64,000 nucleotides of DNA from the NCBI RefSeq assembly GCF_030687495.1, contig NZ_CP117435.1, positions 186,001-250,000 of the forward strand, given 5' to 3'. Made by a program: the position numbers and the translations under genes. The notes under the pieces are model-generated. The model had not been told where the DNA came from. It was given only the letters and a program-made list of their open reading frames with translations, and ran no database searches. Origin of the DNA: Pseudomonas sp. FP453 (GTDB taxonomy: Bacteria > Pseudomonadota > Gammaproteobacteria > Pseudomonadales > Pseudomonadaceae). Shown one piece after another: positions 1,944-18,751 of this stretch (positions are counted from its first letter, which is position 1; each line of letters starts with the position of its first letter).

Positions 1944-1995
1944 TGAGTAGGAAAAGTACCGTATCTACTGGGCCTCGTTGGGTATGATTCGGTTA

Positions 1996-2819: not shown

Positions 2820-2916
2820 GTCTCTCATCCTTGAACCTATGGAGGGCCGAGACGATAACTAAAGCGGTGCTGTGATGCTAGAAGTCGCTGGGGACCCTGA
2901 GGTTTTAGCTCTGGTA

Positions 2917-2934
2917 CGGGGCATGAAACCCGCG
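2917..2934 (-). repeat. Inverted copy of the CGCGGGTT..ATGCCCCG repeat
   Basis: On the minus strand this is the same core as the two direct copies at 3148-3165 and 3281-3298, with two central differences. The similarity extends outward: a CAGGGTCCCC block follows at a like distance in this copy and in the 3148 copy. Confidence 0.6.
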
Positions 2935-3073
2935 GGATCGAGTTAGTGGGAGGTGGTGGAAGTTACTGAAATTTCAATCGTTGAAATTGAAAGGATCTTG
3001 AAGAAAAAGGACCATCCTTACAGCTTCGGTAAAGGTGGCTTTGTCTGTTGCTGATAGTGAACACCTGCATGGC

Positions 3074-3116
3074 GTCAACCAGGGTGATGGCTGTCAACCA
3101 CGTCAACCTGTCAACC
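3074..3116 (+). repeat. GTCAACC iteron array
   Basis: Four copies of GTCAACC start at 3074, 3093, 3102 and 3110, with a degenerate GGTGATGG near 3083 filling the gap, so the period is close to 9 bp. It is the first of three short-repeat sets in this non-coding region. Confidence 0.65.
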
Positions 3117-3132
3117 GACTTAAAAAATCCAG

Positions 3133-3165
3133 CCGCTAACACGAACGCGCGGGTTCTATGCCCCG
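3133..3165 (+). repeat. 33-bp repeat, copy 1
   Basis: Nearly identical to 3266-3298: both begin CCGCT(A/G)ACACGA and end CGCGGGTTCTATGCCCCG. It follows the GTCAACC array directly. Confidence 0.7.
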
Positions 3166-3224
3166 TGTCTATCCGAAATGCCCAGGGTCCCCAGCGGCTT
3201 TACGATTCATAGGGCAAATGCACT

Positions 3225-3250
3225 GGTGAACAGCAGTTCACCTGTTCACT
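3225..3250. repeat. GTGAAC iteron cluster in both orientations
   Basis: Three 9-mers abut one another: GGTGAACAG (+, 3225), GGTGAACTG (-, 3234-3242) and AGTGAACAG (-, 3242-3250). A further AGTGAACAC lies at 3056. From memory these resemble the type I iterons bound by the alpha primase-helicase of satellite P4; that comparison was not checked. Confidence 0.55.
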
Positions 3251-3265
3251 AAGCTGGGCACCTTT

Positions 3266-3298
3266 CCGCTGACACGATAACGCGGGTTCTATGCCCCG
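3266..3298 (+). repeat. 33-bp repeat, copy 2
   Basis: Second direct copy of the GC-rich 33-mer, again placed just after a 9-mer iteron cluster, as copy 1 is. The repeated unit therefore appears to be iterons plus 33-mer. Confidence 0.7.
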
Positions 3299-3410
3299 CA
3301 CGTAGAAGAATGCTTGAGGGCCCCCACCATCGAACCAAAGCCGAGAGCATGACCATCCGCTTCGCTGAAGGAGCAATACTAACGGGGCAGGGGGCTACCT
3401 TAATAAACCC

Positions 3411-3533
3411 GTGTTACGAGTGTTACGCTTGTTACGTAGCCATATAACTATCTGATTTTATTAGATTTTATTAGCGTTACACAGCTGTGACTGGTTCGCC
3501 GATGTGCGTGTTACATGGCAAACAGGTGTTACA
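3411..3533 (+). repeat. GTGTTAC iteron array A
   Basis: Six direct copies of (G/T)(T/C)GTTAC(G/A) begin at 3411, 3420, 3429, 3474, 3508 and 3526. The first three are perfectly tandem with a 9-bp period. An AT-rich patch separates them from the last three. The same heptamer forms array B at 17268-17390 near the other end of the element. Confidence 0.7.
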
Positions 3534-3854
3534 TAAATGAAAGCCTTAGGAGGATCTGGTTGTGATGGTTACGGCGGGTGTCGTCGAACTATGGCTTTCG
3601 TTCAGAAGGGCTGTTACTGGCCAAAAGTTGCCAATCGCGAACGGCACTAATCGACCAAAAGCAGACGTTCGGGATCGGCGAGTTTCGGCCAAAAGGAGCC
3701 GGTCGCATGCGTCAAGGATATAAGGGACAATTAAAGTGCTCTCAGCTGATCTTGTCTACGACCGAGAAGGCGCTACGATGAAGGCGCGTTACGCCGTTTT
3801 CTGGAACTGAAAAGACGGATAAAGAGTAAACAAAAGTTCATTATGGAGGTTCAT

Positions 3855-4817
3855 ATGAGTGGCTATTTAGACTCTATTCCGCATCCGTGGAATCGGAAGC
3901 AGATTATGGCGGCAATGACACACAAATTTACGGAAGTTAAGCCATCAATTGAAAGAACTCCCGGCGGAAAAATCTGGAATGACTTGAAAGGGCTGGATGA
4001 TACGGTATGGATTTTCTATACAAGCATTTCCGAGCTCATTGATGAGATTTGTATCTTTGGCGAGCGAAGCAAGGATCCAGAATTCTGGAATGAAAGAAAT
4101 GAAAAAACGGCAGAACACTATACAAGAGAGGTCAAGCGAAAACTTTACTACTGCACTTCCTCGCTTATGACATTAGTGGAGGTTGCGAGAAACTTTGACA
4201 AAAGACACGATACAAATGGGGTAGGGGTAAAAAGAGCTGAATTTTTCACTACGCCTGGATTGCACGATTTCTTACAGGACTTGCGTAACTTCAGTACTCA
4301 TTGGCGCATTGCCGAAGCCAATTGGTCAATAAACTACAATATGAAAAATGGTACGCGTACGGTGCACTTTCAAATAACCAAGGAAGATTTATTTGCATGG
4401 AGAAAATGGACTGCTAACTCGAAATGCTACATCCAGGCTTTAAATGGCAGTGTTGACGTATACGAAACTCTCACAACATACAAAAAACAAGCACAGGCAT
4501 ATTACTCATGGCACAAAGGCGTTGTAATTGAACAAAACGCTCTGTCTCTGCAACAATATTTTGAGTATACAAAAATTCATGAGGGCCTTCGGCAGTATCA
4601 AAAATGGAACATGCTCCTTTCGCATGCAAAGAACAACACAAATCCTTATCAATACTTGGCAAAGTTTCTCTCACGCTCTCAAATTGAGTCGGTGCTTTCT
4701 TATCCCAAGCACAGCGAACAACAGGTGGATGCTTTGATAAGGGCAGTAGACATGTATCAGATCTGCGACAAAAATCTCAAAGCCAAACTTATGAAGGTCT
4801 TTTCGGTCTCCGAGTAA
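3855..4817 (+). CDS. HEPN-like protein, possible RNase of a defence module
   Basis: The start at 3855 is preferred over 3843 because GGAGGT lies 4 bases before it, giving 320 residues. A long helical region (about 50-115) precedes FLQDLRNFSTHW, where R144-N145-x3-H149 matches the Rx4-6H motif of HEPN ribonucleases. The downstream pattern (a hydrophobic strand, then EDLFAWRKW and a helical tail) resembles widespread uncharacterised proteins with LRNxxxH. GC content is clearly lower than in the chromosome, as in the rest of the cargo. A membrane-protein gene follows after 110 bp in the same direction. Nuclease activity is inferred. Confidence 0.7.
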   Translation: MSGYLDSIPHPWNRKQIMAAMTHKFTEVKPSIERTPGGKIWNDLKGLDDTVWIFYTSISELIDEICIFGERSKDPEFWNERNEKTAEHYTREVKRKLYYCTSSLMTLVEVARNFDKRHDTNGVGVKRAEFFTTPGLHDFLQDLRNFSTHWRIAEANWSINYNMKNGTRTVHFQITKEDLFAWRKWTANSKCYIQALNGSVDVYETLTTYKKQAQAYYSWHKGVVIEQNALSLQQYFEYTKIHEGLRQYQKWNMLLSHAKNNTNPYQYLAKFLSRSQIESVLSYPKHSEQQVDALIRAVDMYQICDKNLKAKLMKVFSVSE

Positions 4818-4927
4818 TTAATACTTGTTTGGCCGCTAAGTTGATCTGCGCCGCCGGACGGGGAATTAGCTACTATTGCATGGTGCGCAAAGCTTACTAC
4901 TCCCAAAACAATCAAATAAGGAATATC

Positions 4928-5671
4928 ATGAGTGATAAATTGTTTCAAGAGCAGTTAAGAGAGTCGCCAGGTGTCTACATTTATTTCCTGTCTCTATATT
5001 CTGTGGGGGCGGGGGCTCTTTATCTATGGGGATATTGGTCCCCATTCGGTGTTAATATTTTAGAATATGTGAATCTCACAGATATAGTGAAGTCAACAAT
5101 ATATCCCATCGCTTCGACTTTTATTTTTCTAGTACTTGGAGTAATGATGGGGCAATTGGTAGGTGTGGGGCCAGAACTTCCGCCTGGCGAAGGCAGAAAC
5201 AGTCCTCCTGCACGGTTTATAATCAGGCATAAACGGTTATTGATTTTTCTCTATATTGCCGGGACTTTGATGTTGATGATTTATGGGCCTGTTGAGAAGT
5301 GGCTGGGGGCATTGCCAGTTCTGCTCGGAGCTCCTATCGCCTTATATGCGAGCGCCAATAATGTTCTAGCACGTCAAATTCCAGCAGACGGACCTCGTAC
5401 TTTATGCTTGTTCTTGCTTGCGGCTCTTCCTTTTATTGCTTTCGGTACTGGTCAATTAAGAGCGGCTGCCGTCCTGAACGGGAAAGCATTCGACTATGTA
5501 GTTGATAATATTACTATAACGCCTGATGCGAACCCTCTTAAAAGTACCCGCTTCATTGGCCATGCTGGTGATTTCTTTTTTTTCTTGGAGCCAGAAAAAC
5601 TGATATTGTCGATCTCCAAATTTGATACAGTAAAAACATTGAGGCTCGGTAGATTCGAGCACAAGCGCTAG
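4928..5671 (+). CDS. Multi-span membrane protein downstream of the HEPN-like gene
   Basis: 247 residues from ATG 4928, which has AAGGA at a proper distance; the longer frame from 4829 lacks a convincing start. About five hydrophobic segments are visible (near residues 14-35, 52-78, 98-118, 125-142 and 155-175), then a soluble C-terminus of about 65 residues with GHAGDFFFFLEPEK. After the first span comes LWGYWSPFGVNILEY, like the FG-containing loop of the protein at 2028-2819. No family is recognised. The same strand and a short gap suggest co-expression with the HEPN-like gene. Confidence 0.75.
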   Translation: MSDKLFQEQLRESPGVYIYFLSLYSVGAGALYLWGYWSPFGVNILEYVNLTDIVKSTIYPIASTFIFLVLGVMMGQLVGVGPELPPGEGRNSPPARFIIRHKRLLIFLYIAGTLMLMIYGPVEKWLGALPVLLGAPIALYASANNVLARQIPADGPRTLCLFLLAALPFIAFGTGQLRAAAVLNGKAFDYVVDNITITPDANPLKSTRFIGHAGDFFFFLEPEKLILSISKFDTVKTLRLGRFEHKR

Positions 5672-5763
5672 CGAGTACCCTCGTATTTGGTCTCACTATG
5701 TGAGCATAGCTGGCCCGAAAAAATACTTTCGGTGAACTTCGCTTTTGGCCGAAAGCTGTCTGG

Positions 5764-6166
5764 TCAGGTGTTGACTAACTCCATGCTGTGGGTGGCATGG
5801 ACATCTTTTGTTCCCATGAAGCCGCAGCGCAGGTAGACGCGTCGCCTTCAGAAGTATCGGTGGAAAGACGCGCCTTCTGAAAGTGATGAGCGGCGTGTGC
5901 AACCAACGCTTTTACCAGCGCCTGACCGACATGTTGATTCCTTGCCGCACGTGCCACGTACACTCGCCGTAGCCTGACGGTATTGGACTTATTATAGGGA
6001 TCAACTGATAGCCCTCCGATTCCTATCACTTGCGGGTTCGAATACGCTGCCATGAGACATTCACCGGACGCGTGAGAAATCTGAAACCTTCTGCAACTGC
6101 CTCTCTCTCCAGAGTAAGAACTTCCGCCGGTAGATGCGTAATTTTTTGAATTTCAATTGGTTTCAT
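5764..6166 (-). pseudogene. Broken GNAT-family N-acetyltransferase
   Basis: Starting at the ATG at 6166, the N-terminus reads as a normal acetyltransferase (AEVLTLEREAVAEGFRFLTR). The frame then jumps: about 15 codons expected in this family appear to be missing near 6060, and the text resumes as GECLMAAYSNPQVIGIGGLSV with the acetyl-CoA-binding region RLRRVYVARAARNQHVGQAL. Near 5837 one T is missing in the coding strand. Restoring it gives DAFYLRCGFMGTKDVHATHS and a stop at 5764. With a deletion and a frameshift the gene is almost certainly dead. Confidence 0.75.
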
Positions 6167-6589
6167 TCATCGTCCCTGATTCGGTGGGAATCCTTTTGGC
6201 TGATCGAGGATGCATCGGGCGCATGCTGTGAGCGATGCTAGTGGCAGCTACCGACGAGAAGCGGTCGTTTAGATGGTGCTAGAAATCGGAAGCTATTCAG
6301 TGAGCTGATCCAGCATTTCGGTAATCTCACTCTTGCTCTTGCTCAGTGGAGGTGGTCGTGATGATTAGTGCACCAACGTCCAGTCGAGACGTAAGCACAG
6401 CTTGGCGATGGTGCTTCACGATGCAGACGTAGCATTTGTCGGCTAGCCGTGCACGACCAAAGTCCAATCATGCGGCGCCTCTTGTAGCGTCCTGGCACCT
6501 CTGGCGAGACTCAGCCGGTGACGAATAGACAGGATACTGGCAAAACGATAGTGTCTACGTCTAGCAGTACCTTAACTGGAGAGCTGGAT
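6167..6589. other. Non-coding stretch in the element cargo
   Basis: No frame with a credible start or family resemblance is seen on either strand; short open frames here lack ribosome-binding sites. It separates the dead acetyltransferase from the ATPase gene and may be residue of decayed genes. Confidence 0.4.
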
Positions 6590-8791
6590 ATGGACGTCTT
6601 AGGCATAAAGCTAGAGAATTGCTACGGCATACAACAGCTTGACGCAGTACTTACCTTCAGGGGCAGTCCGAAACAAAAAGGCAGCCCGGAAATCCCGTTT
6701 GGCTCTGCCTTCTCCATTTACGCACCAAACGGTTTTCATGAAGACGTCGCTGGCTCGAACATTTCTGGATTTTCAGGAGGGGCGAGACAGCCAGGATTTG
6801 ATATTCCCTGCGCGTCAAACCAGCAGATCAATCACTTCCGACCCAGCCACACCGATTACTCCTGAATCCCTCTTTGTCATCAGGCCATATGTTGAACGCT
6901 ATGCGGGTGGTGGTACCTCAACGCTTCTAGTAAATCCGAAGTTGAGGGGCGAATATGAAGAGGCGGTTCGGAATATTGAATCAACTCAGGAAAGTCTGAT
7001 TAAGGCGTTAAAGGAGATTTCAGGCTGGCCAGGAAAAACATCACCTGCTTCTGAAATTAAAGAGGTGTTCCAGTTCAAGAGTCCATATGATTTCTTTGCA
7101 GAGCTAGCGCATGGCTTGGATGGTGATACTCGGTTTTCTGGGTTGTCATATACCGAAATATTTAACGATAAGACAATTGCAGCATTCAAAGCTGGTACGT
7201 TGCACGAACAACTTAAAGATTACATTTCAAAAATATCAAGAGCTAGTGGATAATTCTCCATTGCTGAGCAAGAAATTTAACCACACTGGCGCTGCTGACG
7301 TATCTAAAAGCCTACAGAGTAATGGGTTCTTTGATGCCAACCATACGCTGAATATTTCGAATGGCGGTGAAAGACTAGAGGTAAGCTCAGCCAAAGACCT
7401 GGAGGCGCTTATTGTTGCAGAAAAACAGCGCATCCTAGGGAATAAGGAATTGTCAGAAAAATTTGAAGCCGTTGACAAACAGCTTCAAAAAAACGCAGAG
7501 CTTAAAAAATTCCGTGAATACCTTGCTGCGCACCCGGAAATTTTAGCTGAACTCGGTGATTTCAATGGGTTCAGGAAGAAACTGTGGAATTCTTATTTCA
7601 ATGTCGCCCAAATACCGCTGGGTTCATTTGCTGAGGCCTATGCATCAGCAAAGGATGTAATAGCCGAGACGGCGCGTCAAGCGATGGAGGAAAAGACTAA
7701 GTGGACTGCGGTGGTAACCCAGTTCAATGAAAGGTTCTATGTGCCTTTCAAGCTGGTAGTGCAAAATCAGCAAGATGTTATTCTGAAGGGGGAAACTCCG
7801 AAGATTGTATTTGAGTTCCAGGATGGGCAGGGCACATGTGGAGTTGAGGAGGATAAGCTTCTTCAAGTTCTCAGTCAGGGTGAAAAGCGTGCTCTGTACA
7901 TACTCAACGTACTGTTTGAAATTCAGGCCCGACGCGAATCGAATCAGCAAACTTTGCTGATAGTTGACGATATAGCTGATTCATTTGACTATAAAAATAA
8001 ATACGCAATTATTGAGTACTTCAACGAAATATCCAAAGTGCCATTTTTTAGGCTGGTTTTCTTGACGCACAATTTCGATTTTCATCGCACAGTTTGTAGT
8101 CGCCTGCAAATTGCTAGGAGTCGAAAGTTATTTGCTAAGAAAAATCAGGGCGCTTTGAGTTTCGTACAAGAAAAGTATCAAAAGAACCCATTCACAACAT
8201 GGAAGAATGGCTTAGAAAAAAACTCAGCCTATTTAGTGGCAAGCATCCCGTTTGTACGAAATCTAGCCGAATACTGTCATGGTGCTGGTAGCCCGATTTT
8301 TTTGATGCTGACATCACTGTTGCATATTAAATCCGATAGCAAAACATTAACTATAAAAGACTTAGAGGTTTCCTTTAAAGCCACATTGCTTGATCAGCCA
8401 AATCTATCTCTAAAAAATTCAGCAGGATCTGCGTTGCAGCTTATTTATGATGAGGCGGATGCCTTAGCGGCTAGAGCTGATGACGATGTCGAGTTAGAGT
8501 CAAAAGTTATTTTATCAATTGGTATTCGTCTCAAAGCTGAAGAGTTTATGATCGCTAAAATTAACGACTCGGTATTTTGTCGATGCCATCAGCAGCAACC
8601 AGACATTTGAGTTGTATAGTAGGTTTGCGTCTAAATTTTCCGTCGCTAGCGACCAAATAATGGTGCTATCTCAGGTCAATCTGATGACGCCGGAAAATAT
8701 CCATTTGAACTCGTTCATGTACGAGCCGATTTTGGATATGTCAGCGCTTCACCTTTATGATTTATATGGGAAGGTAAAGGCTCTGGTTTGA
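6590..8791 (+). pseudogene. Large ABC/SMC-type ATPase gene with three +1 frameshifts
   Basis: Read as one gene of about 732 codons from ATG 6590 (GGAG upstream) to TGA 8789-8791. The frame moves by one extra base three times, each in a short homopolymer: T4 at 6733-6736, A5 at 7229-7233 and T4 at 8575-8578. With these repaired there is a P-loop FSIYAPNGFMKTSLARTF (residues ~41-58), a ~300-residue helical middle, an ABC signature LSQGEKRA (~428) and a Walker B TLLIVDDIADSFD (~455) with a later LTHN switch. The C-terminus ends LHLYDLYGKVKALV. The P-loop has Met where Gly is usual (MKTS for GKTS). The lesions may be real decay or homopolymer sequencing errors. ATPases of this build are common in phage-defence loci, but the family was not identified. 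Confidence 0.7.
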
Positions 8792-8901
8792 ATTGTCGCC
8801 AATGCTGAGGCTTACTGGATGCTGACGCCTGAAGCTATCCGCTTGCTTTCGATTATTCAAACTACTAATACTCATCTTAATTGCGATTTAAAGAGACGAA
8901 A

Positions 8902-9051
8902 ATGTCATTTGAAAAAAACTCTGATGGTTTTGACGAATCCAGAGCTGCGCAGCGACTTCTTAATGCCTGGAAGGCAATGAGAGAGGGGAAACTGAGGTTC
9001 CCACCATCATTACAATCCCATGCAGATGAGCTATTAGCTGCACCTCTCTGA
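8902..9051 (+). CDS. Small 49-residue protein between the ATPase and membrane-hairpin genes
   Basis: ATG 8902 follows AAAGAGACG, a modest ribosome-binding site. The product is hydrophilic and ends RFPPSLQSHADELLAAPL. It sits 110 bp after the ATPase stop and about 50 bp before the next gene, so it may belong to the same transcription unit. No family is recognised and the coding potential of so short a frame is uncertain. Confidence 0.4.
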   Translation: MSFEKNSDGFDESRAAQRLLNAWKAMREGKLRFPPSLQSHADELLAAPL

Positions 9052-9101
9052 CGGCGATTGGATTGGTAGATACGCAAGGTATGTCCAGAGAGGCAATATT
9101 G

Positions 9102-10631
9102 ATGGCTACCAGTTTTGGCGCAGCGCTGTCGATACAAGTAGAAAAACAGTTGAAGGAGAATGATGATCAGCTACTAACTAGCATGAACGAAGTTCAAGTT
9201 GAACTGTTTGCCTTATTCAGCGCACTATTTGCTGCATTGACAGGTCGTGCGATCGAGCTTGTCGTAGGTCTGGGAGAGATCAAGGAGCGGATGATGTGGC
9301 GCATTGAACATCAGCCAGACCTGTTCGCTAAAACCGTAAACCAAGCAACAGGAGAGTTAGGTGAGTTTTATAATCACCACTCCATAAATATTTACCAGCG
9401 AGCAAAAAGTTTTGGTGGGATGAGATTGGTTACGGGGGGGCAACGGTTATTTGGTCCATCCGCACTCAACGCCGTTCGCATAACCGGTCTTTATGCAGAT
9501 ACACAACTAATACCAGATCCTGTATATCCATTCATAAGCTCAGATTTAAAGCTAAATGCTGCGCCTTTACAACTTGCGATTCAGCTCTTTCATATTCTGC
9601 AGTTACGCCCGTTAGTGGATGCAAGATTTCCGGTGCCAGCTGTTTTTATTTTTCCCAGTTTTGAGGAACCCTTGGAACAAAACGATGCACATACTAAGTT
9701 AGGTCTTGAAGAGTTGTCGATTCGACTGATTTCTCCAATTTGCCGAGGACAGATTCATTCGTTGGAGGAACTCTTCGAGTATTCAACTAAACAAGAAACA
9801 GCATTTCTTGAGGCGCTTATGCCATCAGGATTGTTTATTCCTCCAGGAGGGGAGCCGGGCATTTCACTTAGCGCCAGCGAAGCAGCGAGCCAGTACCTCA
9901 AAGAGCTCGAGGGAGTACGCTCACCCCATGTTCTGGATCAAATGAAACACATGCCCATCGGCCCTCTGCTTCTCAATGGCGTTCTGGAGCGATTACGACC
10001 CCAATACCATTTATTTGAAAACTCGAACGAGCTTGGGGCGCAAGCGCTACTTTCGCAACGTGTTCACTGGCACTATTTTGAAAAAATCGCCCAAGCAAAT
10101 GCAACAGATCTTCGTTCACAAAATGTGATTTCTGATCAAGCATTTCAGACGCTCCATGCAGTCCAGGATAACAGCCTATCTTGGCTGGCTAATATCCCCG
10201 TAACAACTCTTGTCCAGCTAATTTCGAACAACGAACATCGGTGGCTTCGAGAGGAACTCAACAAATACACAAGCCAACTAGCGTCCGCAGGACCCATTGA
10301 TACGAATGAAATGATCAAAGAGGTTAGCCACGGCCTCGCTTCGCTAGTACAGCGTCAACGCAAGAGTCTTAATGATATTGAATTAAGATATGCACCGAAG
10401 AAAGCCGCAGTCCTTACAGGCGGCGTCATAGGCGCGGGCCTGGTAGCATCAGCAGTCATGCTTCCCTTGCTCTCACCACTCCTTGCAGTAGGTGTTCCCG
10501 CAGTTGCACTGGCAGGAGCAGCTAGTGGTGCACTAATCGGTTTTGGTAAGGAAAAAATAGGTGAAGTCGTTGAGAAGCGCCACGCGGGTAAGTCTATGCT
10601 TGGCGTGCTGGCCACAGCCCGACCTAGTTAA
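9102..10631 (+). CDS. Uncharacterised protein with C-terminal hydrophobic hairpin
   Basis: Start candidates in one frame are TTG 9063, ATG 9081 and ATG 9102; 9102 is preferred because AGAGAGG lies 8-9 bases upstream, giving 509 residues. The first ~430 residues are soluble and mainly helical, with no recognised catalytic motif. Residues ~440-488 form a long Gly/Ala/Val-rich hydrophobic stretch broken by a Leu-Ser-Pro turn, like a membrane hairpin or glycine-zipper pore segment, then a short basic tail. It follows the ATPase on the same strand. A membrane-acting effector is an inference from this layout only. Confidence 0.7.
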   Translation: MATSFGAALSIQVEKQLKENDDQLLTSMNEVQVELFALFSALFAALTGRAIELVVGLGEIKERMMWRIEHQPDLFAKTVNQATGELGEFYNHHSINIYQRAKSFGGMRLVTGGQRLFGPSALNAVRITGLYADTQLIPDPVYPFISSDLKLNAAPLQLAIQLFHILQLRPLVDARFPVPAVFIFPSFEEPLEQNDAHTKLGLEELSIRLISPICRGQIHSLEELFEYSTKQETAFLEALMPSGLFIPPGGEPGISLSASEAASQYLKELEGVRSPHVLDQMKHMPIGPLLLNGVLERLRPQYHLFENSNELGAQALLSQRVHWHYFEKIAQANATDLRSQNVISDQAFQTLHAVQDNSLSWLANIPVTTLVQLISNNEHRWLREELNKYTSQLASAGPIDTNEMIKEVSHGLASLVQRQRKSLNDIELRYAPKKAAVLTGGVIGAGLVASAVMLPLLSPLLAVGVPAVALAGAASGALIGFGKEKIGEVVEKRHAGKSMLGVLATARPS

Positions 10632-10846
10632 TATACATATGGTCAGTATCTGGATGCGGTCGGCACATCCGCTGCCCTATATAACTAGTTGGAGCGACAT
10701 CCTGGGGGCAGGTCGAACCGGTAAAGGGCCGACACTGCCTCATTCGTTTTTAGAGTTTCGAGCGCCCAAGTTTTCGCGCTAACCATTAGTTTCCTGATTT
10801 AGCTACTCGCGACATCGTTATTCTCCCGCCTTCAGCGGTGCTCTCA

Positions 10847-11056
10847 TTAACCGCTTTTTCTTTTGAGCTGGAGGTCAATAAAATCAAGCTCTGCCTTGAT
10901 TGCATCAATCGTGAGCGTCTCAACTTTGGTGTTCTTATTTTCTCTTGCGTTGAGCTTTTTCACTCCAGCCATTCCGACAATTATCCCGTTCAAATGCAGC
11001 TTTCGGGCCTTTAGGTCATCAGGCATCTGAGCACTGTTCTGTGGTGGTTTATTCAT
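10847..11056 (-). CDS. Small hypothetical protein (69 aa)
   Basis: A lysine-rich protein, probably helical towards the C-terminus (TIDAIKAELDFIDLQLKRK). It lies 60 bp downstream of the coiled-coil protein gene on the same strand and would be the last gene of the minus-strand replication module. No strong ribosome-binding site is seen before its ATG. Unknown family. Confidence 0.45.
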   Translation of the reverse strand: MNKPPQNSAQMPDDLKARKLHLNGIIVGMAGVKKLNARENKNTKVETLTIDAIKAELDFIDLQLKRKSG

Positions 11057-11117
11057 GGTTAGACCGATGGTTGGCCCAAAGCAACCGCCTTTGCTGGTTG
11101 CTTAGGGGAGGTTTAGG

Positions 11118-11960
11118 TTACGCCGGCAGTAGGTCAAGCAGGCTGTGCTGATGTGAGCGATCCACGAGCTCTCGCCAGGTCCAGCTTCCGAAGTGCTCGC
11201 CCTGTTCAGGGATCTCCAGCTTCATCAGTGCAATCGGGTCTCGACTAATCAGTTGTCGTGCAGCCCACAGCTTGCCGCCGGTCTCCAGCAGTGCTTTCGC
11301 GGCCTCGTTCCATTGTTCTTCCAGCACAGTGTTCGCCAGGTGAGCCGCTTTGTTCTCGATCTTGGCGCGTTCCTTTTGTGCCTCTGTGATATGCAGATCA
11401 ATCGTCACCAGCTCCTGCTCCAGTGCAGTGATGAGCAGTTGTTGGCGGCGGTGATGCTCAACTGCCGCCGTGAGGTTTTTTGCTGCCTTTTGAGCTTCTG
11501 CGTTAGCCGCTTTTTCGCCCTCTACATCGCCCCAGGCGACAGCCTGTGCATAAGCGGTGGCCGCTTCCGTTTCAGCTTGTCGAGCTTTTGCCATGTCTTC
11601 CTGATCGCTCTGGCGGACCTGCTGCAACCGGGTCTCGATGCTGCTGCGCTTTTCGTTGAGTTCCATCTCGTCGGCTTTCCAGTTCGCCATATCGCTGAGG
11701 TATCCCGCAGCCAAGCTCTCACGGTTTGCCAATCTCTCAAGGCGAAGAATCTTTTGATTCAGGTTGCTGATCTCCAGATTTCGCGAGTCGATGCGTCTTT
11801 TGTGATCGTTGATTTCATCCTGCACGGCTCGTTGACGGCCCTGCTGGATAACCTCCGGGCTTTCCAGCGCCTCTTCGAAGGGAGCCAGGTCACCCTGAAT
11901 GCTCTCCACTTCGAGGGTCAGTTGGTCGCGGCGGTCTTTCAATTCTTGGATAGTGTTCAT
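11118..11960 (-). CDS. Coiled-coil protein of the element's replication module
   Basis: 280 residues, almost entirely heptad-like charged helix from 1 to ~235 (for example RRIDSRNLEISNLNQKILRL and AHLANTVLEEQWNEAAK), ending in a short globular tail (SWTWRELVDRSHQHSLLDLL). No membrane span or enzyme motif. It is 98 bp downstream of the primase-helicase gene on the same strand. Function unknown; a structural or accessory role in replication is a guess from position. Confidence 0.7.
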   Translation of the reverse strand: MNTIQELKDRRDQLTLEVESIQGDLAPFEEALESPEVIQQGRQRAVQDEINDHKRRIDSRNLEISNLNQKILRLERLANRESLAAGYLSDMANWKADEMELNEKRSSIETRLQQVRQSDQEDMAKARQAETEAATAYAQAVAWGDVEGEKAANAEAQKAAKNLTAAVEHHRRQQLLITALEQELVTIDLHITEAQKERAKIENKAAHLANTVLEEQWNEAAKALLETGGKLWAARQLISRDPIALMKLEIPEQGEHFGSWTWRELVDRSHQHSLLDLLPA

Positions 11961-12058
11961 CTGTATTGTCTCTGGGTACTGCGGTTAATAGGGATGGTTG
12001 TCGAATGGCTGGCAAGGCCGGTAATGAGCCGGCGCTACCTCGATCAGCAGACTTGCCG

Positions 12059-14947
12059 TCAGGCGGCCTTGGCCTCGCCTTCGTCCGTTCCTGGAACCGT
12101 CTTCACCACATAGCAGCGTTGAGGCCCTAATCCGGGCAGGCGGATCAAGCTGTACGCCTTGCCGTCACTTCCCGGCTCAAGCACGCCCCGTTGCAGCAAC
12201 TCCTTGTTCACCGCACTGATGTTCATGCCCTTAAAAATCTCGGCCCTCCAGGCTTCAGGCAGCACGTAGTAGGTGTTGGTGGTGTGCAGGGCATCGCCCA
12301 TGCCGTGTTCCAGGGTCTTGCGAAAGCCCAACCGATCAATCGTGCGTGGGCCGTGTTCATCGATCTTGGCGGCGGCAGATTCCCAACGGGTGAAGCGGCT
12401 TTCTCCAAAGCGCTCGATGACCTGGCGCAGCCGCGCCACAATCGCATCCCCCTCAAAGTTACCGGCGCCGCCACGTTCGGCCAGCCACGCATGCAGGCAA
12501 ACCCGTGCAGCAGTCGTGGCTGTACCATCAGGCCAACCTGTGACGCCGAAGGCGGTGGCCAACTCTCCGGCCGCTGCCGCAAGGCCAAAGCGAAGGGCGG
12601 CACGTTGGGCTTGCCCACTGGCCGATGCGGGTAGGTTTTGAGTGATGAACTGTTCCACCGTGCGGCGAATGATCACCGTCCATCTGAGCATTTCGCCAGG
12701 CGCGCACAGAGAGTGCAGGAAGGCGGTGAGGGGGGTTCCGTAGTATTTGGCGACACGGGCCTTGAGCGCATCGGAGAGGGCGGCCGCATCCTCAAAACCG
12801 TTCAGCACATCGAACATGCCGAGGCCTTTGCTGGCATCCGCAGGCACGGCGAGCATGCGCACCTCCATACCGGCTTTCAGCTCCTTGTTGGCATCTGCCA
12901 TGTGCTGCGCCAACGTCTTCTCGCCGGTCGAGAGGAATAGCAAGCGCCACTCCTGCACCTGTCGGCCCGCTTGTCCTCGATCATTCGCCCGGGCCTTACC
13001 GGTGCCGTTACCGAGCATGTAAACCGTCTCGCCAATGATGCGTGGGTCACACATGCCAATTTCATCCAGCACCAGGAGCCCGTCTGAATGGGCGGCTGCG
13101 ATGGACTCCAGGGCGTTATCTGTCGAGCGCCATGAGCGCACTAGACGCGGCCCGCCATAAACCGATGCAGCGACTTGCAGGTGAGTGGTCTTGCCCCCGG
13201 AGCTGTCGCCGTAGAGATGGAAGCCGCCCGACTCATGCCCGAGTAGGTTGAGCAGAGGTCCTGCAAAAGCCACAGAGACGACAAATGCCAAGCGGTGGTT
13301 GCCAACGCACAGTGCCGCGATTTGCTGCTGCCATTGCTCCAGAGAGCCCGCTTCGCTGATTGGTGGAAGCTGCGCACCGGCTTCATAAAAATGCAGGTGT
13401 TCGGCGTGCGAACCGATTTGCTGTTCCGGCAAAAGGAAAGCGTTGTCGTGCCACCCCAGGCGCGTTACCAAGCGTGCGCGCTGGGCACTGTCGAAGCCTC
13501 CGAGGTAACTCTGCAGGTCGTTGCGGGCATTGCGTCCTGATCGACTTCCTGCAAGGCGCAGGCCCATGTCTACCAGCGGGCCGAGTACGTCCTTGCCGAA
13601 GTCGCCGGTCATCGTCCGAGCAGGAATGTTCCAACGTTTTTTGGCGCCGTCCGGGTCATCGAACTCAACCAACAAACCCCAGTTGTGGCCCTTGTCGTCA
13701 CGAGTGCGGGCGATGATTTCCAGAGGCGAGCACACGGGGCGCGCCTCGCCATCATCGCCGGAATAAAAGACCCCTTCAGGCGTCAGGCGAAAGCCGCCTG
13801 GCAACAGGTCGGTTTTCGATTTGGCAGGGCGTTTGGCGGGCGCTTTGGCCTTCTGTTCTTGAGGCTCAGTGGGCTCAGTGGCACCGCCGAAAAACTCGCC
13901 GCTGCGCACCAGCTCGGCGACGTGGTCTGCGGTCCAGCCTTTGGCTAATGCATCCGCTGCATCATCGCCATCCGCCCATTTTCCACCCTTGATGAGCGTC
14001 GGTTTGCTGCCTTTGCTGCTTGGCTTGAGCTTAAACACGTCGAGCGAGATTCGTTGCACTGAAGCGGCGCCCAGCTCAATCAGCTTGAGCTCGATGGCGT
14101 CCATGCACGCTGTGCCGCTAGCATCGTTATCCGGCCACAGCACCACAGCGCGCCCTTTGAGTGGTGTCAGGTTGGCTTTGTGCCAGGAGTTGGAGCCGTT
14201 CGGCCAGCACGTGGCTACGTGGTCGGGCATCAGTTCAGCGGCGGCGTCAGCAGCCTTTTCGCCTTCACACAGCACCACAGTCGCATCGACACGCTGTGCC
14301 AGGTCATCCAGGCGCAGCAATGGCCGAGGCTCAGGCAATCCTTGCCAGCGCCATTGCGTGGTTTGTCCATCGGAGCGCTTGCACCAGGTCAACGGCGCAA
14401 AGACCTTTCGCGGTTTGCCGTCTTCATCTGGGCCCAGGTCGAAGCGATACTGCGCCATGACCGGTTGGCCCTGTGCATCGCGATAGATCCACACCTTTGA
14501 CGGAACACCGTGTTGCCGGTGTCTGGCTGGGCACTTGTTCATGGCCTCGGCCGGGATCGGCTGAATTGCGATCCACTCCGGCGTTGCGCTCTTGGCCGGT
14601 GCGCTTTTGGTAGTCGCAGAACCTGCGGAAACACTGAGCAGATCCGCAAGCTTTTTGCAGGCCTCAACGTCCGTGCCGCCGTCGATGTAGCGCACTAGGT
14701 CGATCAGGTCGCCGCCCTTATCGCCGGTGGCAAAATCCGCCCAGGTGCCTTTGCTCAAATTGACCTTGAGCGAGCCTGCACGTTTGTCCGTGCGCGTGGG
14801 GTTTGGTGCGGTGTATTCCTTGCCGCCGTCGACGCGTTTGCCATTTGGCAGCCAATGAGTAAGGACGCGGTCGATGTTCTTCAGGGCAGTGCTTTTTACG
14901 TCGGCAAAGCTGGGGCGTTTTGAGGTGTTGCCGGTGCGCTGAGTCAT
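12059..14947 (-). CDS. Primase-helicase with Toprim and DUF927 domains
   Basis: 962 residues. An N-terminal part resembling a primase DNA-binding region (KGTWADFATGDKGGDLIDLV, ~65-85) is followed by a Toprim domain with the catalytic Glu in VVLCEGEKAADA (~225-235) and WPDNDASG (~271-278). A DUF927-type helicase follows with Walker A GDSSGGKTT (~575) and Walker B GLLVLDEIGMCDP (~620). Such fusions replicate satellites and integrative elements, as alpha does in P4. The start overlaps the upstream gene's stop (ATGA), so it is translated as part of a minus-strand operon. The paired iteron arrays of the element are candidate target sites. Confidence 0.85.
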   Translation of the reverse strand: MTQRTGNTSKRPSFADVKSTALKNIDRVLTHWLPNGKRVDGGKEYTAPNPTRTDKRAGSLKVNLSKGTWADFATGDKGGDLIDLVRYIDGGTDVEACKKLADLLSVSAGSATTKSAPAKSATPEWIAIQPIPAEAMNKCPARHRQHGVPSKVWIYRDAQGQPVMAQYRFDLGPDEDGKPRKVFAPLTWCKRSDGQTTQWRWQGLPEPRPLLRLDDLAQRVDATVVLCEGEKAADAAAELMPDHVATCWPNGSNSWHKANLTPLKGRAVVLWPDNDASGTACMDAIELKLIELGAASVQRISLDVFKLKPSSKGSKPTLIKGGKWADGDDAADALAKGWTADHVAELVRSGEFFGGATEPTEPQEQKAKAPAKRPAKSKTDLLPGGFRLTPEGVFYSGDDGEARPVCSPLEIIARTRDDKGHNWGLLVEFDDPDGAKKRWNIPARTMTGDFGKDVLGPLVDMGLRLAGSRSGRNARNDLQSYLGGFDSAQRARLVTRLGWHDNAFLLPEQQIGSHAEHLHFYEAGAQLPPISEAGSLEQWQQQIAALCVGNHRLAFVVSVAFAGPLLNLLGHESGGFHLYGDSSGGKTTHLQVAASVYGGPRLVRSWRSTDNALESIAAAHSDGLLVLDEIGMCDPRIIGETVYMLGNGTGKARANDRGQAGRQVQEWRLLFLSTGEKTLAQHMADANKELKAGMEVRMLAVPADASKGLGMFDVLNGFEDAAALSDALKARVAKYYGTPLTAFLHSLCAPGEMLRWTVIIRRTVEQFITQNLPASASGQAQRAALRFGLAAAAGELATAFGVTGWPDGTATTAARVCLHAWLAERGGAGNFEGDAIVARLRQVIERFGESRFTRWESAAAKIDEHGPRTIDRLGFRKTLEHGMGDALHTTNTYYVLPEAWRAEIFKGMNISAVNKELLQRGVLEPGSDGKAYSLIRLPGLGPQRCYVVKTVPGTDEGEAKAA

Positions 14948-15216
14948 GGTGCGATCCTCGACTCAAGCAACGCCTCGTTCACGTCGTCGATCAGCGCCTT
15001 AGCCATCTCGCCGAGGTAGAACGCAGGCCAACTAAAACGCTCGCCCGCATCGCTGATGGCGGCGTCGAGGATCAGTTGATTGGCGTGGTGCAGAGTCTGG
15101 GAGACGGCTTCAAGTGCGTCCTCTAGCGGGATACCAGCATTCACCGGAAACAGGTTTTGGCCGTTACCGTTGGCAGGGGAAAACTCGGACCGTCCAAGCG
15201 TGCTTGAGTGGGTCAC
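14944..15216 (-). CDS. Small hypothetical protein of the replication operon (90 aa)
   Basis: Overlaps the primase start by 4 bp and its own upstream neighbour by 4 bp, so it is coupled on both sides. The sequence (LEDALEAVSQTLHHANQLIL, FYLGEMAKALIDDVNEALLE) resembles small helical proteins of unknown function found with AlpA/primase modules in Pseudomonas elements; I recognise the type from such contexts but cannot name a domain. Confidence 0.7.
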   Translation of the reverse strand: MTHSSTLGRSEFSPANGNGQNLFPVNAGIPLEDALEAVSQTLHHANQLILDAAISDAGERFSWPAFYLGEMAKALIDDVNEALLESRIAP

Positions 15217-15497
15217 AGCGCACCGCCTTTCTGGCTCATTGGCACAGAGGAGGCATCACCGTACATGGTGAGTGTTTTGATCAAGCCTAAGGTGCCGCGT
15301 ACGTCCCAAATAACTGACGACAGCACGCGGTTGGAAAGCAGGGGTTTATCGCCGTCTAAGTGATCTTCCAACAGCATGAGAACTGAATCGGCACGGTCGA
15401 GCGCACAGGTGATGGCGTCGATAGGCAGACCGGCTTCGGCGTCTTGGCTGACGCAGAGGAGATCCTCGGGTAGTGCAAAGCCTGGGAGCATGCTCAT
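15213..15497 (-). CDS. Small hypothetical protein of the replication operon (94 aa)
   Basis: Helical, acidic protein with FALPEDLLCVSQDAEAGLPI near the start and a repeated leucine pattern. It is coupled by 4-bp overlaps to genes on both sides. No annotated domain recognised; its consistent place between the regulator and the primase suggests an accessory role. Confidence 0.65.
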   Translation of the reverse strand: MSMLPGFALPEDLLCVSQDAEAGLPIDAITCALDRADSVLMLLEDHLDGDKPLLSNRVLSSVIWDVRGTLGLIKTLTMYGDASSVPMSQKGGAL

Positions 15498-15655
15498 TGG
15501 GCACCCCCAGCGGCTTCCAGAGCTCGCGCTTTGGACATATGGACGTTATAACGGGAGAGGCGTGTAGCGAGGCTGGAGTTGGCATGTAAAGCGGAGAGAG
15601 CCATTGCTCGATGAGCAGCGGCGCGAATTTTGGACGGATTGAGGGCGTGTTTCAT
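15494..15655 (-). CDS. Small basic protein (53 aa), first gene after the structured leader
   Basis: ATG at 15655 has AAGGAG 8 bases upstream, the best ribosome-binding site of this stretch, giving a 53-residue basic helical protein (MKHALNPSKIRAAAHRAM). The same frame is open upstream to 15979, which would give 161 residues. The upstream part has odd composition and lies over a chain of hairpins, so the short form is preferred. It is coupled to the next gene by a 4-bp overlap. Confidence 0.55.
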   Translation of the reverse strand: MKHALNPSKIRAAAHRAMALSALHANSSLATRLSRYNVHMSKARALEAAGGAQ

Positions 15656-15979
15656 CTGTGTAGCTCCTTGATTTGAGGAGCTGCCACGTTCGTTACCAAG
15701 CGAATGGGTGGCAGCTGTGCGCAGGTTGGTAAACCGGGAATCAAGGAACCCGGCAGGCACGAATGCCTCCCACGCACAGCCGCCATAACACGTAACTGCG
15801 GGCACAAAAAAAGCGCCTGCAATCGTAATGGGGGCGCTGTTGCGCCTTGATTTCGTCGGGTTACCAAGCCCGTTCGCTGAATTTGCAGCGACTACCGGAG
15901 AGTAACGTCCGTTTTTTGAAAGCGCAACCGTGCGGATCACTTGCGGATTTTTTCGGTGAAGAATAAATTGCTCAGGCAT
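15656..15979 (-). ncRNA. Hairpin-rich leader, candidate regulatory RNA of the element
   Basis: In transcription order (minus strand) several inverted repeats occur close together: AGGCA/TGCCT (15755-15768), CCGGG/CCCGG (15734-15753) and a 9-bp AGCTGCCAC/GTGGCAGCT stem (15679-15716), with a GCGCC pairing further upstream. GTTACCAAGC occurs twice (near 15692 and 15859). Satellite P4 makes its immunity RNA from a similar structured leader before its replication genes. Open frames here (to 15979, and 15652-15867) may be coding in some relatives. Whether this is RNA, protein or both is unresolved. Confidence 0.35.
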
Positions 15980-15992
15980 GCAGATTTACCTC

Positions 15993-16020
15993 AACGCCTC
16001 CGGTTGCCGCCGGAGGCGTT
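15993..16020 (+). terminator. Strong 11-bp hairpin between regulator and leader
   Basis: AACGCCTCCGG and CCGGAGGCGTT pair perfectly around a 6-base loop. A short T-tract follows only on the plus strand, so as a terminator it would act on plus-strand transcripts. On the minus strand, in which the operon runs, it is a stem without a U-tract and may instead be the first stem of the structured leader. Confidence 0.5.
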
Positions 16021-16026
16021 TTCGTT

Positions 16027-16332
16027 TCAGGCATTGGCTTCCCAGCGCAGGGAGAGCAGTGGGAGGAAGTCGCCGTCGAGGCAAGATCGTGCATCTTCGT
16101 AAGCGTCGATTTGTTGCCCTTCATCTACGATCACTGCACGCGGGGCTTCGTTGGGTACTGACAGTGCGCACCAGGTGCCGTCAGCCCATCGCATGACTAG
16201 AACTACTCGATTCAGGTGTTTTTGTTGCGTTCTGTGACGCTCAAAACGTTGCATCCACCGCGACGAGAAACCGACTTTTCTGAGTGCAGAAAAGGGCTGC
16301 AAAATGGCCTTGTTAGCGACACGATTAGTCAT
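16027..16332 (-). CDS. Hypothetical protein following the AlpA gene (101 aa)
   Basis: The start at 16332 overlaps the AlpA stop as ATGA, which decides it over the longer frame from 16398. The protein begins MTNRVANKAILQPFSALRKV and has a compact second half (RVVLVMRWADGTWCALSVPN, then an acidic strand and DFLPLLSLRWEA). Unknown family; tightly coupled to the regulator and ending just before the hairpin at 15993-16020. Confidence 0.65.
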   Translation of the reverse strand: MTNRVANKAILQPFSALRKVGFSSRWMQRFERHRTQQKHLNRVVLVMRWADGTWCALSVPNEAPRAVIVDEGQQIDAYEDARSCLDGDFLPLLSLRWEANA

Positions 16333-16682
16333 GCCGCCACCCGGTCGCGGGCCGCGATACGCGCCCGTGTCCAATTCAAAATTTCGGCTAATACCCAAGC
16401 GACCGGAGCCCCACGCGCATTGCTATCGGTGAGCTTCACGGCTTGCGGAAAGCCGCTATCTGGCTGGCTCATAAGTTTGTAAACCGTTGCGCGGGCGATA
16501 CCTGTCAGGGCTATGACTTGATTGATGCGTATCAGCGTGGCGGCCGGATCGAACTGTCCCAGTTCCGTATGATGCGCGCTGATCGGCAAGCATGCGGATC
16601 CGCTAGGGGCCTTTTGGTGACTTTCTCGTGGAGTGGAGGGGGCAAGCCCCACAACTTTTGCAGATTGCTTTGGGGTGCTCAT
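16329..16682 (-). CDS. AlpA-family transcriptional regulator
   Basis: 117 residues. A ~45-residue N-terminal extension precedes the AlpA domain: LIRINQVIALTGIARATVYK (helix-turn-helix), then QPDSGFPQAVKLTDSNARGAPVAW and WTRARIAARD. AlpA proteins are small DNA-binding regulators of P4-type integrative elements and can act on excision genes. Its ATG overlaps the stop of the upstream HTH gene (TGATG), and its stop overlaps the next start. It is expected to control this operon or the integrase promoter. Confidence 0.85.
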   Translation of the reverse strand: MSTPKQSAKVVGLAPSTPRESHQKAPSGSACLPISAHHTELGQFDPAATLIRINQVIALTGIARATVYKLMSQPDSGFPQAVKLTDSNARGAPVAWVLAEILNWTRARIAARDRVAA

Positions 16683-16930
16683 CAGGTCCTGTCTCCAGCG
16701 GTTTTTGCAGGTGAGCGCAGTTGGGTTTCAAGCCACGCGACCACGTCTTGGGAGCGATAACGAACCCGAGACCCGGTTTTGATATAGGGAAGTGAGTTGC
16801 TGCGAGAACTTCGCCAGGCGGCAAGCGTTCGGCTGGACAGACCTAGTGCATTAGCGACTTGGTCGGTAGTGAGCAAACAAGCAGGGGTGAGAGAGGTAGT
16901 GGAGTGGTCTGAAGTGTCGTGAGGCTGCAT
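16682..16930 (-). CDS. Excisionase-like helix-turn-helix protein
   Basis: 82 residues with a winged-HTH of the excisionase/MerR type: LLTTDQVANALGLSSRTLAA, then YIKTGSRVRYRSQDVVAWLE, the usual pattern for binding-domain family 17. It is the first gene of the minus-strand operon and is coupled to the AlpA gene. With the integrase 490 bp away it is a good candidate recombination directionality factor, but either this protein or AlpA could fill that role. Confidence 0.75.
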   Translation of the reverse strand: MQPHDTSDHSTTSLTPACLLTTDQVANALGLSSRTLAAWRSSRSNSLPYIKTGSRVRYRSQDVVAWLETQLRSPAKTAGDRT

Positions 16931-17420
16931 AGCGCGTTTCCTGTCGTAGTTCGTACAGGCCCCAGCTATGTAAACGATTTTCTATTTTTTAAAAGTTTTA
17001 TTTTTATAGTTTTCGAAGCAGGTTTTATGGATAAGACAATTTAATTGAGCAAGATCGCAGCAAGGTTTCAGTTTTTTTCGGGGCTGTCCTACCTTGCCAT
17101 ACTGGTTTTCTATACAGTTGAAAATCGGAAAGTGAGAAATGAAACCCGGTGAGGTCCCGACGAACGGTAGTCCCCTGCGCCCCTTCTGGTAGTCCGATAA
17201 CAGCGGCCCCTCCTTAGCGTGGGGCGACCAATAAGAGATGGCCGCCAGAGGTTTTGGGCGCCTTAGGCGTAACACGCTTTTGACGCGTAACACATGATGT
17301 ACGGATCTCTTTTAATACGTGTTACGCAAGAAATATTAAATAAAATCAATTGGTTGATCGGATGCGTAACGTGCGTAACACCAGTAACATCGATTTTTGA
17401 TGGGTATGGGGTTGGCGTAT
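16931..17420. other. Non-coding region between integrase and operon, with iteron array B
   Basis: No credible gene is present (a 103-codon minus frame lacks support). The AT-rich part at 16970-17040 is a likely promoter region for the operon starting at 16930. The part from 17265 carries repeats of CGTAACAC that mirror array A in the left non-coding region. Confidence 0.5.
17268..17390 (-). repeat. GTGTTAC iteron array B
   Basis: On the minus strand GTTAC-containing copies occur at 17268, 17286, 17365, 17374 and 17383, and one lies on the plus strand at 17319. The last three are tandem with a 9-bp period, and the first two are 18 bp apart. The heptamer is the same as in array A (3411-3533), in opposite orientation relative to the window, and an AT-rich patch likewise sits in the middle. 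Confidence 0.7.
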
Positions 17421-18656
17421 TCAACCCGCCTTTCCAAACCTTCCCTGAATAATGTTGCCATCTACTAGCTCATCCAGATGATCTGCGTACCACTGCATCA
17501 TCACTCTGCGCTGAGGTAGGTAAACCGCCTTGTTGTACACCCCTGCAATTCCTTCCTTTGCGTGAGAGAGCTGGGCCTCAATGTGATTCTCATCGAAACC
17601 CTGCTCATTGAGTATGGTGCTCGCGATGTGACGAAAGCCGTGGCCTGTTTGCCGACCCGCATATCCCAGTCTGCGGAGCGCCATTAGAAAGACGGTGTTG
17701 CTACGCGGGATTGTCCTGTCTTTCCTGCCTGGAAATAGGAGAGGGTACGCACCTGTCAGTGTTCGTAACTCTGTGAGCGCTTCAATTGCCTGTCGAGAGA
17801 GAGGCACCACATGTTCGCGACGACGTTTCATTCGCTCGGCTGGGATCGTCCATAGCTTTTTGGAGAGGTCGATTTCTGACCAGCGTGCTTCTCGGATCTC
17901 GCTCGGGCGCGATGCTAATAAGGAAAGCAAGCGAAGCCCTATACGAACGTCCTTTGCGTGAGGGTAGGAGTTGATCGCTCGAAGTAGCGCAGGCAGTTCT
18001 TCAATCGAAACGTGTGCATAGTTTTCAGCGCTACGTGATTGCAAGAATTTGCTGAGGCCTTCAAGGGGGTTGTGGACGGCTCGTCCTGTTACGCGGGCCA
18101 GGTCATAGATCTCTTTGCAAAAGGCACGAACTCGGCCCATTTGTTCAATGATCCCTTTCTGCTCCATGCCGCGTAGAAACTCCATCCATTCCAGGGGCAA
18201 TATTTCTGTGTACACGCGTTTGCCGAAGACGGGGAACACATGAAGCTCAAGTGCGCCAAGCACTCGTCGAGACGTACCTGATTCCCAGCTTGTGCGTCTG
18301 GCCTCAAACCACTCGCGGCCTAGCGCTTCAAAGGTGTTGTTGGCAGCAACCTGGTCTGCAACCTTGCGAGCTTGCTTGCTCACCAAAGGATTTTTGCCAG
18401 TCGATGCATCATCCCTCAGCTGAGCTGCTTTCTGTCTCGCTAATGAGCCACTGATTTCCGGGTAGCCGCCGAGACCCAGCCACGACCATTTCCCGTCTGG
18501 CTTTTTGTAGCGCAGCTCCCACGATTTTTGCCCGTTAGGTTTCACCCGAAAGTACAGACCATTCCCGTCCTGCTCCCGATAAGTAGTGTGCTCGGGCTCC
18601 AGGCCTGCGAGCGTGGTGTCTGCTAAGGGGCGGCGTTTGATTTCAGAGCGCTTCAC
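17421..18656 (-). CDS. P4-type tyrosine recombinase (integrase)
   Basis: 411 residues with the usual two-part build. An N-terminal arm-binding DUF4102-like domain (LADTTLAGLEP, then GLYFRVKPNGQKSWELRYKK and WLGLGGYPEISGSLAR) is followed by a catalytic domain with SRPSEIREARW (Arg), HGFRHIAST (His-x-x-Arg), QLSHA (His) and GVYNKA (Tyr). Length is normal for the family. It starts at GTG 18656 and points away from the adjacent tRNA-Arg. A copy of the GGCATACA repeat overlaps its ribosome-binding region (18661-18668), suggesting autoregulation. Confidence 0.95.
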   Translation of the reverse strand: MKRSEIKRRPLADTTLAGLEPEHTTYREQDGNGLYFRVKPNGQKSWELRYKKPDGKWSWLGLGGYPEISGSLARQKAAQLRDDASTGKNPLVSKQARKVADQVAANNTFEALGREWFEARRTSWESGTSRRVLGALELHVFPVFGKRVYTEILPLEWMEFLRGMEQKGIIEQMGRVRAFCKEIYDLARVTGRAVHNPLEGLSKFLQSRSAENYAHVSIEELPALLRAINSYPHAKDVRIGLRLLSLLASRPSEIREARWSEIDLSKKLWTIPAERMKRRREHVVPLSRQAIEALTELRTLTGAYPLLFPGRKDRTIPRSNTVFLMALRRLGYAGRQTGHGFRHIASTILNEQGFDENHIEAQLSHAKEGIAGVYNKAVYLPQRRVMMQWYADHLDELVDGNIIQGRFGKAG

Positions 18657-18708: not shown

Positions 18709-18751
18709 CGGCGGGAAGTTATAGGGGTGGACAGGGATGGATAGCCAGAAA

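Follow-up and report, generated by a model that had tools for sequence, protein, structure and literature searches.

Two mirrored heptamer arrays as a candidate ori/crr-type pair for the DUF927 primase-helicase of an integrated Pseudomonas element

Which sites in its own DNA would an integrated element use to replicate with the primase-helicase that it encodes? The question is raised by an element of about 16.9 kb, integrated at tRNA-Arg(ccg) in Pseudomonas sp. FP453 and contained in the window, that is, the whole stretch of 64,000 nucleotides analysed here (contig NZ_CP117435.1, positions 186,001 to 250,000, forward strand). The element encodes a DUF927 primase-helicase of 962 residues (12059..14947, minus strand), with an N-terminal primase-like part, the DUF927 domain at residues 389-664 and a C-terminal domain at about 830-955. 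It also carries two arrays of the heptamer GTGTTAC, array A (3411..3532, plus strand) and array B (17269..17390, minus strand), which a sequence-only reading had proposed as a pair of replication sites resembling ori and crr of satellite phage P4. That proposal gains from the analysis, as the arrays stand far above chance, occur as a mirrored pair conserved with the primase, and are linked to it. The two arrays are very probably the cis replication sites of this P4-like integrated element, bound by its primase-helicase, and an ori/crr-type pair is by far the best reading of the sequences compared. Binding, melting, a requirement for both sites and replication of the circle are what we infer from it.

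Both arrays share one architecture, built from six heptamer sites. In array A, a plus-strand triplet (3411-3417, 3420-3426 and 3429-3435, the last being the variant TTGTTAC) is followed by an AT-rich gap (3436-3475), an inverted copy (3476-3482, variant GTGTAAC) and a pair (3508-3514 and 3526-3532). Array B has its triplet on the minus strand (17384-17390, variant ATGTTAC; 17375-17381; 17366-17372, variant ACGTTAC), a gap at about 17326-17360, an inverted plus-strand copy (17319-17325) and a pair (17287-17293 and 17269-17275). Counted from the outer end, the offsets common to both are 0, 9 and 18 for the triplet, 65 for the opposite-strand copy, and 97 and 115 for the pair, so that the arrays are mirror images of each other. 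The sequence-only reading had counted six GTGTTAC copies in each; the six sites stand, and only four of them per array are exact, the other two being variants. Its AT-rich patch was found again, since the 40-bp gap averages 63% A+T over 113 array calls in this element and its relatives (range 35-90%) against 45% for the loci as a whole. In the chromosome, 14 kb separates the arrays; excision would leave them facing each other over about 3 kb of the circle, with the attachment (att) site and int between them, a distance that holds if the left end of the element is the imperfect att copy near 1919-1945.

The heptamer is concentrated in these places. The window contains nine exact GTGTTAC copies (the mean in shuffled sequence being 3.05, with nine reached in 1 of 100 shuffles), and eight of the nine copies fall inside arrays A and B. 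The complete genome of 6.28 Mb holds 198 copies on both strands, about one per 32 kb, and equal frequency elsewhere in the chromosome, which would have spoken against the proposal, was not observed. The phased pair GTGTWACNNGTGTWAC is found five times genome-wide, against none for the backwards control pattern: in array A, twice in a solo remnant (3257448 and 3257685), in a second element of the family (4726050), and at an isolated position, 5293212, around which there is neither a full array nor a match to the proteins of the window element.

Conservation was assessed in 65 relative loci obtained from one scan of genome contigs for the primase. A search for the architecture in these loci and the window element returned 104 arrays and none in the reversed sequences; a looser threshold gave the 113 calls mentioned above, the control again yielding zero, and a few of these calls are second ones inside or beside a single array (L058, L047 and the window). 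A full-length primase is encoded in 57 sequences, namely the window and 56 relatives (L038, a short contig, was left out). Among them, an upstream plus-strand array is present in 53, a downstream minus-strand array in 47, both in 43, and no sequence lacks both, as expected if relatives that keep the primase keep the paired arrays. Other orientations are limited to a minus-strand call overlapping the upstream array of L058 and a plus-strand array beyond A in L051. In elements with a different integrase, array B is found next to array A and still faces it, at 475 (minus) and 1251 (plus) in L145, the second element of the same genome, the latter array scoring 34 of 42; at 2402 (minus) and 3055 (plus) in L147, the former scoring 35; and at 5867 (minus) and 6813 (plus) in L148. 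Because the arrays of these three loci face each other, pairing and mutual orientation are preserved, whereas the spacing, about 3 kb in the excised circle, is here 0.65-0.95 kb.

Some of these loci have features of their own. The second element (L098 and L145, positions 4706600-4740000 of the same genome) encodes a primase 94% identical to that of the window and has a distant integrase-like frame on one side; the frame beside its facing arrays in L145 resembles a serine recombinase, judged by eye without a family search. Two arrays in the same orientation, 582-666 bp apart, stand at the A end of L006, L010, L015, L017 and L062, and the outer one resembles, by eye, the B-type sequence. The solo remnant (L074, 8949-9215, about 3257448-3257714 in the genome) comprises one array and part of another with no match to the element's proteins nearby, and is apparently a left-over element end.

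If the arrays serve replication they should travel with the primase, and this association was measured in 149 Pseudomonas genomes by using exact phased triplets and a primase threshold of E 1e-100 or better. The triplet was found in 20 genomes and the primase in 31, with both in 18, the triplet only in 2, the primase only in 13 and neither in 116 (Fisher p 4.6e-13). The arrays also persist across integrases 23-99% and AlpA proteins 47-96% identical to those of the window, and HTH_17 is present in only 14 of the 65 loci. The arrays thus follow the primase, not the integrase or the regulators. These data bear on the proposal that AlpA, HTH_17 or another regulator binds the arrays as operators, controlling the alpA operon from B and a cargo promoter from A. 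Such a role would suit the position of B just upstream of the HTH_17/alpA operon, and a study of phage-inducible chromosomal islands (PICIs) presents AlpA as a regulator that binds DNA and, in a PICI, turns on its own expression (PMC6092414). It is quite improbable, since the architecture is unchanged where AlpA drops to 49-73% identity, HTH_17 is found in a minority of loci, B adjoins A in elements with another integrase, a GTGTTCC iteron goes with a diverged primase C-terminus, and distant DUF927 loci have their arrays downstream of the helicase gene.

The position of the arrays towards both element ends, in inverted orientation, would likewise fit integrase arm sites or excisionase sites acting in excision. 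This explanation has very little probability and was rejected, because separate GCATACA repeats adjoin both att sites and the arrays are indifferent to the type of integrase, their architecture being constant over the whole range of integrase identity given above; moreover, they lie about 1.4-1.5 kb from the att sites. The TAGGCATACA repeats at 1994..2015, matched by GCATACA copies at 18690-18710, are distinct from the heptamer arrays and are themselves the probable arm sites.

Regarding the part of the primase-helicase that would read the heptamer, the sequence-only reading had looked to the N-terminus as the DNA binder; the comparison favours the C-terminal domain (about 830-955) instead. 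The GTGTTCC iteron accompanies a drop in identity at the level of this domain, so that the C-terminus covaries with iteron type, and a predicted fold match points the same way, which suggests that the domain is the iteron reader. Specificity at single residues was considered and rejected: five alignment columns split GTGTTCC from GTGTWAC primases, four of them C-terminal, and alternative labelings along the same deep branches give similar counts, for which reason only the domain-level drop is used. The window protein can therefore be set beside the DUF927/SaPIbov1-Rep type, a DUF927 helicase with a C-terminal domain that presumably reads the origin.

The closest layout is that of P4. In its record (NC_001609), the type-1 repeats of ori lie at 9310, 9320 and 9331 on one strand, at 9353 on the other, and at 9396 and 9406, the same grammar of triplet, inverted copy and pair as in the window arrays, and crr consists of two 120-bp repeats with direct and inverted copies. 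P4 is ordered int, attP, crr, alpha, C4/isrK, vis, ori, and the window int, att, A, cargo, primase, C4, alpA, B. In both, two separate cis sites carry the same iteron in direct and inverted copies; one site is upstream of the operon of vis or of HTH_17/alpA, the other (crr in P4, A in the window) falls in the interval that runs from att to the primase gene's 3' end, and a C4-type RNA lies between primase and vis/alpA. The integrase and the AlpA/Vis protein are related as well (E 7e-55 and 6.8e-10), P4 int being matched in 53 and vis in 54 of the 65 loci. The likeness to ori and crr first noticed from the window alone is thus retained, in site grammar and position, when the P4 annotation is consulted. 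The differences are that the P4 iteron is CTGTTCACC and the window iteron GTGTTAC, that the P4 triplet is spaced at 10-11 bp against 9 bp, that crr is made up of two 120-bp repeats, and that alpha carries D5_N/Pox_D5 without DUF927.

On this model, array B would correspond to P4 ori and array A to crr. The C-terminal domain of the DUF927 primase-helicase would read the heptamers; helicase rings would be positioned at the AT-rich stretch by the sites flanking it, the triplet to one side, the inverted copy and pair to the other, and the duplex would melt there. With both arrays occupied, and probably in contact across the short arc of the circle, the element would replicate after excision. The chief open rival holds that only one array fires and that the other is a copy-number or incompatibility site titrating or handcuffing the primase. 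Handcuffing at iterons is established for iteron plasmids, both arrays have the same sites and face each other, some loci have only one array, and the gap of A, at 67% A+T (59 calls), is richer in these bases than that of B, at 58% (54 calls). Arguing for two cooperating sites, most loci have the complete six-site architecture with its AT-rich gap in both arrays, and the P4 layout is that of a phage that needs both ori and crr for replication; a single origin is on balance unlikely, while deserving to be taken seriously.

Beyond Pseudomonas, an unsupervised detector of heptamer arrays was run on 33 loci, of which 31 were counted; the remnant L074, with no DUF927 gene, and L098, which belongs to the Pseudomonas family, were excluded. 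The 31 comprise one phage and 17 plasmids, chosen by hand for being small or diverse among the 83 plasmid and 31 phage records with protein matches, and 13 chromosomal loci; the latter come from 143 genomes drawn class-wide, 14 of which were positive, a partial match (G111) being left out. A phased array was detected in 25 of the 31, and in 23 it lies within 1.2 kb downstream of the DUF927 gene. Of 165 shuffles, 1 gave an array. Control stretches were cut from the chromosomes to which the chromosomal loci belong and from the remainder of the window, and the detector fired in 2 of these 22 (Fisher p 2e-7). Its yield in the Pseudomonas family itself is low (26 of 66 sequences), because it demands exact copies while these arrays mix two heptamers. 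The iterons vary by lineage (GGGGAAC, TGGGACA, GTGTGAC, GGTAACA and TGAACCA are examples), and the phased grammar is found in Proteobacteria and, as single loci, in Firmicutes and Actinobacteria; one stretch of the viral contigs examined matched a pattern, and none of these contigs encodes a relative. At least one cognate array accompanies the DUF927 gene in the window, in its 56 relatives with a full-length primase and in these 25 distant loci. It is conceivable, though short of probable, that the phased grammar of triplet, AT-rich gap, inverted copy and pair, often mirrored, is a general origin code of DUF927 self-loading helicases, in which evolution of the C-terminus rewrites the heptamer and the geometry stays, the same geometry being used by the unrelated P4 alpha. 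In the Pseudomonas family, a palindromic origin would then have been divided into two half-origins; with 14 kb between them in the chromosome and only about 3 kb in the circle, firing could be coupled to excision.

Several observations weigh against the interpretation of the arrays as a primase-bound ori/crr-type pair. Fourteen of the 57 full-length-primase sequences have only one array in the stretch examined; in most of them the contig is cut or B sits next to A. Thus L004, L009, L034, L035, L045 and L050 retain less than 9.3 kb of downstream DNA, L039 and L051 have a short upstream part, B adjoins A in L008 and L051 and probably in L026, where it is cut by the locus end, and L029 has a minus-strand phased pair on the same contig, 16.4 kb from B. 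No array A was found within the 10-kb flank in L022, L024 and L052, and the L022 genome has no exact phased pair at all. In the survey, two genomes (G179 and G287) have exact triplets without a primase match at E 1e-100, possibly as remnants or in elements with a more distant primase, and 13 of the 31 primase genomes have no exact triplet, including that of the window, which is counted there because its triplets are imperfect. Regarding the reader domain, the C-terminal domain of L047, a GTGTTAC carrier, is closer to the GTGTTCC clade (73% vs 60-65%), the GTGTTCC-type L048 is no nearer that clade (62%) than the GTGTWAC groups, and single columns separate iteron types no better than other labelings; the full-length AlphaFold model is unusable (predicted local distance difference test, pLDDT, 53.4) and that of the C-terminal domain moderate (66.4). 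The detector found no array in 6 of the 31 distant loci (L076, L104, L106, L107, L111 and L114), and in L105 and L117 the arrays are elsewhere than on the downstream side; in the missed plasmid pHS87b (L076), AGGGAAC-type repeats do lie downstream of the DUF927 gene. Finally, the orientation of P4 ori with respect to its operon is the reverse of that in the window, and P4 alpha has no detectable homology to the DUF927 protein (BLASTP E 1.0; different Pfam domains), so that the match with P4 is one of layout only. No alpha of the Toprim/D5_N/Pox_D5 type was found in the window (best tblastn E 0.69), where psu, sid, delta and epsilon reach E 0.12, 2.9, 0.81 and 1.4 at best and have no match in the 65 loci at E 1e-4. 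Because these five genes are unmatched, the element lies outside the P4-like family by its defining genes, sharing layout and grammar and not the initiator.

Other replicons offer further comparisons. SaPIbov1 Rep is a DUF927-related self-loading helicase with an iteron origin, and the origin of such islands is reported to lie directly 3' of rep (PMC7581432); the window differs in having two mirrored sites far from the primase gene. Gram-negative PICIs of the EcCICFT073 type are described as having int, alpA, a primase-replication gene and iteron sets around an AT-rich region (PMC6092414), and C4/isrK-type RNAs match several PICIs according to another report (PMC10111431). The window has the same set of genes and iteron sets flanking an AT-rich region. 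It differs in origin position, which the former study gives as immediately 3' of rep: no array is found directly downstream of the primase at 12059, A lying 8.5 kb beyond it and B upstream of the operon. The satellite phiAH14b of an Antarctic Pseudomonas (KU708005, PMC4936722), whose genes include one for AlpA, one for a topoisomerase-primase separate from the helicase, and one for the DUF927-like helicase itself, has two mirrored GGGGAAC arrays just 3' of the helicase gene, about 60 bp apart; its helicase is only 33% identical to that of the window, and its iteron differs. The word iteron is absent from the main text of that paper. The Methylobacterium nodulans plasmid pMNOD05 (NC_011888), a free circular plasmid record whose annotation includes no tyrosine integrase, encodes a DUF927 primase-helicase 38% identical to that of the window and also has two mirrored arrays, of 9-bp-phased GTGTGAC with triplets facing about 1.9 kb apart, one of them, unlike in the window, directly downstream of the helicase gene. 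Within the openly searchable literature that was consulted, no description of an origin was met for the Pseudomonas family.

Primase-helicases whose sole annotation is domain of unknown function 927 form a very large family, spread over satellites, integrative elements and small plasmids; for these enzymes the arrays supply a concrete origin candidate together with a code that can be read. With the iteron sequence tied to a domain of roughly 100 residues, origin specificity becomes predictable and testable. The comparison also suggests that the two-site ori/crr layout of P4 is not bound to the P4 alpha protein, and the element furnishes a tractable Pseudomonas system for asking why some elements should need two mirrored origins and whether excision licenses replication.

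The remaining parts of the element complete its description. The integration target and right att site is tRNA-Arg(ccg) (18824..18900, ARAGORN); beside it lies a tyrosine integrase of the P4 type (17421..18656, minus strand; Pfam; 31% identity to P4 Int). The left att site is a copy of the tRNA-Arg 3' end (1919..1945; scoring 32 in a local alignment where 300 random stretches reach 28 at most), and as this copy is imperfect, it is only the probable left end. The element also encodes an HTH_17 regulator or excisionase-like protein (16682..16930, minus strand; Pfam HTH_17 E 3.8e-11) and a Vis-like AlpA-family regulator (16329..16682, minus strand; Phage_AlpA E 3.3e-12; 35% identity to P4 Vis). 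The C4 antisense RNA, a P4-type immunity RNA (15704..15790, minus strand; Rfam RF01695, 87.6 bits, gathering 45), and its c4-a1b1 targets (15853..15905, minus strand; RF03163, 51.5 bits, gathering 46.7) form a region present in 54 of the 65 relatives; isrK reaches 45.4 bits in the window, under its gathering score of 50. A predicted 161-residue frame (15494-15979) overlaps this region, has no Pfam or PHROGs match and is possibly not a protein.

Adjoining array A is a strongly conserved noncoding block (2885..3330, strand not assigned) with four GTCAACC sites, three GTGAAC-type sites, three CGGGTT-n-CCCC motifs, a palindrome and a terminator-like hairpin; one of the GTGAAC-type sites is an exact GGTGAACAG, the P4 type-1 repeat. 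A search of the phage collection for a helper phage gave no match to the block. It recurs in L063, L012, L046, L030, L051 and others, and its three kinds of repeat are present in 23, 19 and 24 of 38 A-ends against none of 38 control stretches. The cargo includes a candidate defence gene, PDC-S46 (6639-8610 of the window), whose match is divided between two frames that overlap (E 4.9e-36 and 8.4e-177), so that the gene is probably frameshifted.

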